64,000 bases of DNA from Geomonas limicola (GTDB lineage: Bacteria; Desulfobacterota; Desulfuromonadia; Geobacterales; Geobacteraceae), in NCBI RefSeq assembly GCF_014193675.1, contig NZ_BLXZ01000002.1, positions 434,001-498,000 on the forward strand. The letters run 5' to 3'. Positions 36,757 through 37,902 of the stretch are shown piece by piece. Each line of letters starts with the position of its first letter. The first letter of the stretch is position 1. Position numbers and translations under genes: made by a program. A model generated the notes under the pieces. The model had not been told where the DNA came from. It ran no database searches and was given only the letters and a program-made list of their open reading frames with translations.

Positions 36757-36855
36757 CTGGCACCTCCTATCCTGCACTGGTGATCAGCTAACTGTCTGTG
36801 ATAAGATGTAAATGTAACAGGTGGCGTCAAATAGGACCTGCTTTATCTTTTTTGC

Positions 36856-36884
36856 TTGACGAGCAGCACCGGAAAAGGTAAAGT
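36856..36884 (+). promoter_or_regulatory. sigma70-type promoter of small transcription unit
   Basis: TTGACG (36856-36861), 17-bp spacer, TAAAGT (36879-36884). It would start RNA near 36891, about 30 bases before the 20-codon ORF. Confidence 0.65.
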
Positions 36885-36920
36885 CCATCCAACGCCACCT
36901 TACGAAAGGAGATTACGCCG

Positions 36921-36983
36921 ATGTGGACCGCTAGATTCCGTATTCGTCCTGTTTCGCACTGCAAGGAAGGTTGCAGTCTGTAG
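36921..36983 (+). CDS. 20-residue peptide, possible leader or small RNA-borne ORF
   Basis: ATG to TAG encodes MWTARFRIRPVSHCKEGCSL. AAAGGAG (36905-36911) is nine bases ahead of the ATG, an excellent ribosome-binding site. The peptide is basic with a CxxxC (Cys14, Cys18) at the end. It lies between a good promoter and a strong terminator, and its last codons are part of a hairpin. It could be a regulatory leader peptide for the downstream dehydrogenase gene, a small secreted/modified peptide, or an ORF on a small RNA. No family recognised. Confidence 0.6.
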   Translation: MWTARFRIRPVSHCKEGCSL

Positions 36984-37006
36984 CCCGTCAAGTCACATTG
37001 ACGGGC
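36958..37006 (+). ncRNA. consecutive hairpins of leader-like or small RNA
   Basis: ACTGCAA (36958-36964), loop GGAAGG, TTGCAGT (36971-36977). Then GCCCGTCAA (36983-36991), loop GTCACA, TTGACGGGC (36998-37006). The first loop exposes a GGA motif of the type bound by CsrA. Together with the terminator at 37023 the RNA would be about 160 nt. Confidence 0.5.
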
Positions 37007-37022
37007 GGCGCAAGTGAACCCG

Positions 37023-37050
37023 AAGCCCCCGTACCACACGGGGGCTTTTT
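37023..37050 (+). terminator. terminator of the 36856-37050 unit
   Basis: AAGCCCCCGT, loop ACCAC, ACGGGGGCTT then TTT. Ten-bp stem with T-tract. It separates the small ORF from the dehydrogenase promoter. Confidence 0.9.
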
Positions 37051-37070
37051 GCGTTTGGGGCACACGGGTT

Positions 37071-37098
37071 TTGACGCCGACGGAAGCGTTGGTATAGT
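37071..37098 (+). promoter_or_regulatory. promoter of the SDR gene
   Basis: TTGACG (37071-37076), 16-bp spacer, TATAGT (37093-37098) with an extended TGG just before the -10. The gene starts 52 bases downstream. Confidence 0.75.
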
Positions 37099-37149: not shown

Positions 37150-37902
37150 ATGAAGATAGCACTGATAACCGGCGGCAGCCGCGGCCTGGGCCGCAACATC
37201 GCCCTGCATCTCGCCCAAAAGGGGGTCGACGTCATCCTCACCTACCACAGCCGGGAGGCCGAGGCGCAGGACACGGTGCGACAGATCGAGGGGGTCGGGT
37301 GCAAGGCGGTGGCCCTGCAGCTCGACGTGGCACAGCACGCGCTCTACCCCGCTTTCGCCGGGCAGGTCAAAAAAGTCCTGGCGGAGACCTGGCAGCGGGA
37401 TGATTTCGACTACCTGGTCAACAACGCCGGTTTCGGCGTCTGGTCGCGGTTCATGGAGACCAGCGAGGAGCAGTTCGACCAGTTGGTGAACGTGCACCTG
37501 AAGGCCGCCTTTTTCCTCTCCCAGAAATTGCTGCCCATCATGAAAAACGGCGGCAGCATCGTGAACATCTCCTCGGGGCTGGCCCGCTTCTCACTCCCCG
37601 GCTACTCGGCTTACGGCTCTTTGAAGGCGGCCATGGACGCCCTGAGCCGCTACATGGCCGTGGAACTGGGCGAGCGGCAGATCACAGTGAACTCGCTTGC
37701 CCCCGGCGCCATCGAGACCGATTTCGGCGGTGGCGTGGTGCGTGACAACCCGGAAGTGAACGCCGGCATCGCGGCGCAGACCGCGCTGGGGAGGGTGGGG
37801 CTCCCGGACGACATCGGCGCGGCGGTTGCGGCCCTCTTGTCCGACGACTGCCGGTGGATCAACGGCCAGCGCATCGAGGCCTCGGGCGGCATCCATCTCT
37901 AG
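37150..37902 (+). CDS. Short-chain dehydrogenase/reductase
   Basis: 250 aa classical SDR. The cofactor motif TGGSRGLGRN is at residues 8-17, NNAG near 94, the catalytic Ser in VNISSGLARF, and YxxxK as YGSLK (Tyr about 157). The Arg after the cofactor loop suggests NADPH preference. The C-terminal WINGQRIEASGGIHL is typical of FabG-like enzymes. RBS AAGGAGG. The substrate is not predictable; FabG-like 3-oxoacyl reduction is one possibility. Confidence 0.93.
   Translation: MKIALITGGSRGLGRNIALHLAQKGVDVILTYHSREAEAQDTVRQIEGVGCKAVALQLDVAQHALYPAFAGQVKKVLAETWQRDDFDYLVNNAGFGVWSRFMETSEEQFDQLVNVHLKAAFFLSQKLLPIMKNGGSIVNISSGLARFSLPGYSAYGSLKAAMDALSRYMAVELGERQITVNSLAPGAIETDFGGGVVRDNPEVNAGIAAQTALGRVGLPDDIGAAVAALLSDDCRWINGQRIEASGGIHL

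Follow-up and report, generated by a model that had tools for sequence, protein, structure and literature searches.

CutF (DUF2946) of Rhodobacter capsulatus is a copper-responsive nascent peptide which combines a CxxxC motif with an mRNA stem-loop, and for which ribosome pausing has been proposed (PMC9973294). In the field of redox stress, regulators of the Rrf2/NsrR type were shown in other bacteria to sense NO through an Fe-S cluster (PMC2577008). Here, we describe a mini-gene of Geomonas limicola for which CutF may be the nearest functional analogy. It lies in a stretch of 64,000 nucleotides (in the following: the window; assembly GCF_014193675.1, contig NZ_BLXZ01000002.1, positions 434,001 to 498,000 of the forward strand) and encodes a short peptide with the motif CKEGC. 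The CKEGC mini-gene is apparently an undescribed family, judged by the libraries and literature searched: Pfam, NCBIfam, Rfam and the PDB gave no match for the peptide family or the unit RNA, four family members had no Pfam/NCBIfam match at E ≤ 10, the unit RNA found no Rfam family at the gathering threshold and none in low-threshold scans, and no paper containing the peptide motif was found in the literature searched. An earlier interpretation of the bare letters (the sequence-only reading) had likewise known no family for the peptide. We favor, with a probability of roughly 40%, the explanation that the product is a trans-acting cysteine peptide of an anaerobic redox, NO or iron-sulphur stress response, whose mRNA would be built for a ribosome pause at CKEGC.

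The unit at 36856-37053 on the plus strand, the strand of all features given here with window coordinates, has the make-up of an autonomous mini-gene with promoter, strong Shine-Dalgarno (SD) sequence, 20-codon ORF, hairpin and terminator. Its sigma70-type promoter (TTGACG-17-TAAAGT, 36856..36884) is located where the sequence-only reading had seen a good one, but is only moderate with a 9/12 consensus match; TTGAC is found at the equivalent position in most relatives. Immediately 5' of the -35 element, the imperfect dyad AAATAGGACC..TTATCTTTTTT (36829..36853) is a possible candidate operator and should be read as a lead only, as the dyad search gave none above threshold for the window unit itself. 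Several other Geomonas units of the same copy type (copy A, see below) carry cleaner dyads, AAAAGGATC-N5-GATCTTTTT, at the equivalent place before the -35. The SD sequence AAAGGAG (36905..36911), called an excellent ribosome-binding site before, precedes the ORF MWTARFRIRPVSHCKEGCSL with its TAG stop (36921..36983). The core codons PVSHCKEGC occupy 36948..36974, including the second Cys codon at 36972-36974; the S/T and H/R positions of this core are variable within the strict family. The ORF had been described as ending in CxxxC, and the motif is indeed present, followed by two further residues.

Both hairpins that had been noticed were recovered by folding, namely ACTGCAA-GGAAGG-TTGCAGT inside the ORF (36958..36977), which shows the GGAAGG loop and is partly dictated by the codons, and a post-stop hairpin (36983..37006), whose first pair involves nucleotide 9 after the second Cys codon, i.e., the G of TAG. 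The strong terminator was also located as a predicted intrinsic terminator, called at 37022-37048 and assigned to 37022..37053 of the unit, the sole one of the unit. For the 168-nt RNA, a folding energy of -67.6 kcal/mol was obtained versus a shuffle mean of -49.6 (z -4.55), and 0/200 shuffles folded as well. The window unit thus shows all traits of a CKEGC mini-gene, i.e., an SD sequence, an RPV[ST][HR]CKEGC peptide, a structure in register at nucleotide 9 and a terminator. It is flanked by a divergent gene for a CYTH protein and by an SDR gene (37150..37902; Pfam PF13561/PF00106), which is a neighbor and not a conserved partner. As previously suggested, the latter has a separate promoter outside of the mini-gene unit (37071..37098), matching the consensus at 10/12 positions with an extended -10 (TG before the -10).

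The sequence-only reading had made the unit depend on the conservation of peptide and stems, and both are kept in relatives. BLASTN with a 281-base query gave a match in 34/58 relatives of the same order and the 20-residue peptide a match in 58/58 (E ≤ 6e-4), so that a chance origin of the unit can be dismissed. Except for the closest relative, the main BLASTN matches start at or near the SD sequence and span the ORF, many of them reaching the 3' hairpin; the closest relative, Geomonas silvestris (L115), shares 88-89% identity around the unit and 96% over 280 bases of the unit. A profile search of the class matched 43/44 genomes of the order Geobacterales and gave five matches outside of it, three of which we read as real (G850, G852, G885; MWTSTYKLRPVTRCKEGC, MWTLTYMLRPITRCKEGC).

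Several types of copies can be distinguished within the order. The window's genome contains two of them, copy A in the window and copy B (MWTQHYMVRPVTRCKEGCPS, at G000:C4:437367), which is flanked by DUF362-ferredoxin and LysM-MltD genes and lies downstream of xerC, in a gene order that is identical in another genus. By eye, the 5' UTRs of copy B in Geomonas (loci L065-L076) show a possible hairpin CAUCCUC..GAGGGAUG 5' of the SD sequence. Other Geobacterales feature copy C, MWTxRF(R/K)IRPVSHCKEGC(PS/HS), and the profile added copy D (MLRKRYQLRAIAHCKEGC; L256, L257, L258, L262, L263, L264) as a fourth paralogue, which represents the relaxed form RAIAHCKEGC and bears the Omnitrophota-type pseudoknot described below. 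An in-frame TGA after CKEGC in copy D looks like an ordinary stop; selenocysteine was considered and rejected, as other members show TAG or a sense codon there.

On the evidence of codon-level conservation, 36921-36983 is a translated mini-gene and the peptide its conserved product. Third codon positions have an entropy of 0.4-1.8 bits while the residues are fixed, and position -1, which is free in the search pattern, is Arg in 128/130 cases with CGT, CGC, CGG, CGA and AGA all present as codons. Position -2 is I/L/V in 125/130 and position -4 F/Y in 120/130. Overall, the 10-13 residues up to the second Cys are conserved in peptides of 16-24 aa, with a variable N-terminus and C-terminal tail, and an SD-like motif precedes the ORF in 117/117 Geobacterales-type units. 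Codon usage differs from that of neighboring genes and is shifted to the usage of ribosomal proteins, scoring 15.1 bits for copy A, where a rare AGA codon contributes much, and 5.4 bits for copy B, compared to a 95th percentile of 2.2 bits for the window genes. The Gly codon GGT is used in 93/116 Geobacterales peptides versus 6% of the Gly codons in window genes; GGT-TGC is dominant in Geobacterales and GGC is commonest in other phyla, i.e., the preference is not universal. Of the options raised from the sequence, the short Cys-containing peptide gene is therefore the one that prevails, the peptide being the most conserved part of the unit with synonymous change at nearly every codon.

Beyond the Geobacterales, Omnitrophota, some Firmicutes and a few other phyla also have the core [FY]x[ILV]RPV[ST][HR]CKEGC. 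Strict matches were obtained in 12/237 Omnitrophota genomes and in 2/249 genomes of a further phylum (that of G367), and those in a sample of the window's own phylum are confined to its own order; as strict scans leave few codon positions free, relaxed forms like copy D are under-sampled in these counts. The degenerate pattern PV[ST][HR]CKEGC gave more copies in Omnitrophota, Selenomonadales, a Thermoanaerobacteraceae MAG, Theseobacter and CPR MAGs, a distribution which is a lower bound among the matches listed. This pattern fixes codon positions 1-2, by which the invariance of the core in the resulting set is partly imposed. Less biased checks are provided by BLASTN, the peptide search, a one-mismatch scan, the class profile and a scan of Omnitrophota for the pseudoknot. 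When one mismatch was allowed in 22 distant genomes, all matches were exact, and the reversed-pattern control gave 0 matches. Recent transfer or binning contamination could explain the lone matches in Parcubacteria (L173) and Wolfebacteria (L148). A viral origin of the peptide was rejected, as the strict peptide pattern was not found in viral contigs.

Downstream of the core, the RNA is nearly always structured in a fixed register. A fully paired post-stop stem is present in 96/116 Geobacterales units, compared to 40% after an exchange of arms among units and 2% when the downstream sequence was shuffled, and in an alignment of 26 units 97.6% of the cells are paired, with 6/8 pairs changed on both sides. 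Counted from the second Cys codon, the stem begins at nucleotide 9 in 98/116 units and at nucleotide 8 in 13; the Wolfebacteria hairpin also starts at nucleotide 9, the Parcubacteria helix at nucleotide 7. In Omnitrophota, Negativicutes and copy D of Geobacterales, the same place holds GUCCYGGGYANGACNNUAAAC-UGCCC, so that this 26-nt probable pseudoknot of other phyla has the same register as the Geobacterales hairpin. Its stem GGGCA:UGCCC covaries (GGAUA:UAUCU, GGACA:UGUC and others) and its stem GUC:GAC is invariant, which makes the pseudoknot itself a proposal. Two unrelated types of structure share this fixed register of 8 nt behind the second Cys codon. By the geometry of the ribosome, nucleotide 9 is approximately at the mRNA entry when the P or A site is occupied by the second Cys codon. 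Some lineages stopping right after CKEGC (L129, L150, L140, L229, L230) have their structure in a different register. A pattern for the pseudoknot only found 36 sites in 35/145 Omnitrophota genomes, and a (H/R)C(K/S)EGC peptide precedes, at constant spacing, 30/30 of the Omnitrophota pseudoknot sites examined as loci. One locus (L165, 2360-2416, minus strand) has two tandem pseudoknot-like copies behind a single CKEGC peptide, upstream of a ferritin gene.

The pseudoknot alone is also abundant in viral contigs, with at least 124 unique sites (L297-L416, e.g., L339 2653-8452, L303, L315) and, among the sites listed, up to six copies in one contig. Among the viral sites listed, the S2 pairing comprises all five pairs in 94/124 and four pairs in 25/124, and shifted controls almost never reached four pairs. 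Stop codons end 6-8 nt 5' of the viral pseudoknot in 37, 30 and 14 of the 124 sites listed, versus a background of about 7. Annotated phages gave weak matches only (Moorella phage MTATph1, Nostoc phage NMeng1), Rfam contained no family for the pseudoknot, also in a low-threshold scan, and literature retrieved with a pseudoknot sequence fragment was unrelated by title. The fixed distance of 6-8 nt from stop codons might hint at a general, so far undescribed ribosome-facing RNA element, a rather doubtful reading.

Genomic context differs between lineages. An intrinsic terminator follows within 160 nt in 116/117 Geobacterales-type units versus 16/31 units elsewhere. Most Geobacterales copies adjoin other genes, coding for MacA/B-like efflux, MltD, DUF362 or SDR proteins, and a large neighbor cluster directly 3' of many units consists of a membrane-fusion protein with ABC-transporter and MacB-like genes behind it. 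The neighbors of copy A differ by genome (SDR, YeiH-like, outer-membrane lipoprotein, response regulator and others), and in 9/15 copy-A loci examined, the next ORF found by automatic calling lies on the other strand. Because the terminator is near-universal and the copy-A neighbors vary, it is unlikely that the window copy controls a conserved target in cis. In Omnitrophota, units lacking a terminator head operons, and in 26/30 Omnitrophota loci, genes for Rrf2, Hcp, NifU, rubredoxin, ferritin, rubrerythrin, desulfoferrodoxin or FprA lie close by in the same orientation, with Rrf2 directly next in 16/30; these neighbor families were confirmed by Pfam for representatives. Furthermore, the palindrome TGATAC-N7-GTATCA (score ≥11/12) lies inside the promoter of 21/49 pseudoknot-type units versus 0.2% of shuffles, and it overlaps the promoters of Rrf2-Hcp and rubredoxin operons of Omnitrophota (L134, L192, L228, L273-L288 and others). 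It probably serves as operator for a regulator of the Rrf2 type, and we infer that its ligand is Rrf2 itself.

In the window's genome, the product would act in trans, because no neighboring gene is conserved. As a trans-acting cysteine peptide, it could be a small thiol effector, possibly responsive to metal, iron-sulphur clusters or NO, in anaerobic redox or nitrosative stress, because its Omnitrophota relatives are the first cistrons of Rrf2-Hcp and of rubredoxin, ferritin or flavodiiron operons. It is this Omnitrophota context, with same-strand genes for Rrf2, Hcp, NifU, rubredoxin, SOR, FprA, ferritin and rubrerythrin, that suggests the link to redox and NO stress. During translation, the register-locked structure would stand at the leading edge of the ribosome while the second Cys codon is decoded, and, as deduced from spacing alone, the ribosome probably pauses with RPV..CKEG(C) beside the peptidyl-transferase center. 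Such a pause might help a co-translational event, e.g., metal or thiol chemistry, or sensing, and the terminator would keep the mini-gene transcript apart from the SDR gene. A more far-reaching and rather doubtful idea is that the near-invariant ten-residue nascent peptide and the register-locked RNA roadblock form one ribosome-centered device for sensing or maturation under redox, NO or Fe-S stress in anaerobes, and would thus define a new class of genes.

An alternative option, which we consider unlikely, albeit the strongest among the competing explanations, is a cis-acting nascent-chain arrest leader of the CutF/SecM kind, where a stall dependent on redox state, NO or metal remodels the RNA and controls downstream genes, the Geobacterales copies being derived. 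Conservation covers the last 10-13 residues ahead of the hypothetical stall site while N-terminus and tail vary, the RNA structure stands at a fixed spacing, terminator-less Omnitrophota units head Rrf2-Hcp and related operons, and CutF likewise features CxxxC and an mRNA stem-loop (PMC9973294). However, units of Geobacterales, Negativicutes and some Omnitrophota end in a terminator, often with a convergent next gene, the spacing between structure and next gene is variable, and visual comparison of the copies showed no obvious anti-terminator pairing. Pairing of the post-stop hairpin with the terminator is possible by eye in the window, and was rejected since several copy-C terminators are unable to form it. 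A far narrower version, with the unit acting as transcription attenuator of the downstream SDR gene, is hardly credible: both in the window and in Geomonas silvestris, the gene behind the short ORF and terminator is indeed co-directional, but the SDR gene has its own, better promoter and the remaining copy-A units are followed by different genes, often in opposite orientation. The attenuator leader proposed by the sequence-only reading finds no support for the window copy, given the SDR promoter, these varied neighbors and the terminator present in 116/117 units.

A precursor of a RiPP or cofactor, in which Cys, Lys or Glu would be crosslinked by a distant maturase, is improbable, although a short motif of Cys, Lys and Glu is very highly conserved in anaerobes. 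GeoRSP, a radical-SAM system that takes its name from Geobacter, was considered as partner and rejected, as TIGR04303 scored over the cut-off in only 3/29 peptide-bearing genomes and not in the window's genome (G000); a literature search for GeoRSP gave only an unrelated homonym, and no maturase is prominent among the clustered neighbors. We regard it as equally improbable that the unit is a non-coding or dual-function sRNA of about 160 nt, e.g., a CsrA/RsmA-type sponge acting via GGA loops. The fold is stable and the window copy has GGA in the SD sequence and in one loop, but conservation is at the amino-acid level, positions outside of SD sequence, ORF and stems are little conserved and no seed is visible. 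Loop GGA is found in only 39/116 Geobacterales units, and both the CsrA/RsmA-binding sRNA and the earlier proposal of an RNA for a GGA-recognizing regulator were dropped for this reason. Finally, the short ORF, strong SD sequence and terminator would also fit a small toxin of a type I toxin-antitoxin pair, yet the peptide contains no hydrophobic stretch and, to our knowledge, conservation this strict is not typical of known type I toxins, making this explanation very improbable.

Annotation usually misses genes as short as 16-24 codons. The CKEGC mini-gene occurs in nearly every Geobacterales genome searched, often in several copies, with a near-identical motif in distant phyla, and this wide distribution points to a probably important role in anaerobes, including metal-respiring ones. 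Of special interest is the combination of a tiny Cys peptide tied to Rrf2, Hcp and rubredoxin stress operons with an undocumented RNA pseudoknot that is also used by phages.

Pseudoknots that mediate recoding by read-through or frameshift are compact, have an A-rich third loop and stand at a spacing of 6-8 nt. The pseudoknot of the CKEGC family resembles them in all of these features; however, no slippery site or extended frame was found in the family, and the window copy has a plain hairpin. Amino-acid leader attenuators such as the Phe leader (RF01859) share the arrangement of SD sequence, short ORF, hairpins and terminator, but the Rfam score is 18 versus a cut-off of 55, there is no run of regulatory codons and the neighbors are not conserved. 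We know of no description of a conserved mini-peptide with a pseudoknot in Rrf2/NsrR regulons, and a literature query for this combination found none. In leading Rrf2 and Hcp operons, the Omnitrophota relatives resemble the Rrf2/NsrR stress regulons with Hcp and rubredoxin (PMC2577008; PMC1274295). The arrest peptides SecM, MifM and ApdA (PMC10987492) are similar in their patchy but wide distribution, conserved C-proximal residues and short ORF; in contrast, the CKEGC unit has another motif, is not located upstream of sec or yidC, and is predicted to form an autonomous transcript in the window. CutF differs by its Sec signal, its Pro-rich C-terminus and its location immediately upstream of cutO, whereas the CKEGC peptide has 16-24 aa, no Pro-rich end, no apparent signal peptide and, in Geobacterales, its own terminator. 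Membership in DUF2946 (CutF/CruR) was accordingly rejected, given the lack of a Pfam match and, by inspection of the 20-aa sequence, of a Sec signal and Pro-rich end. Direct location upstream of a controlled gene, as in CutF, is not seen in Geobacterales, but many Omnitrophota units do lead operons. What both systems share is a small product with CxxxC, which reads CKEGC in the window peptide as in all of the strict family, an mRNA stem-loop downstream, and neighbors of the metal or redox type.
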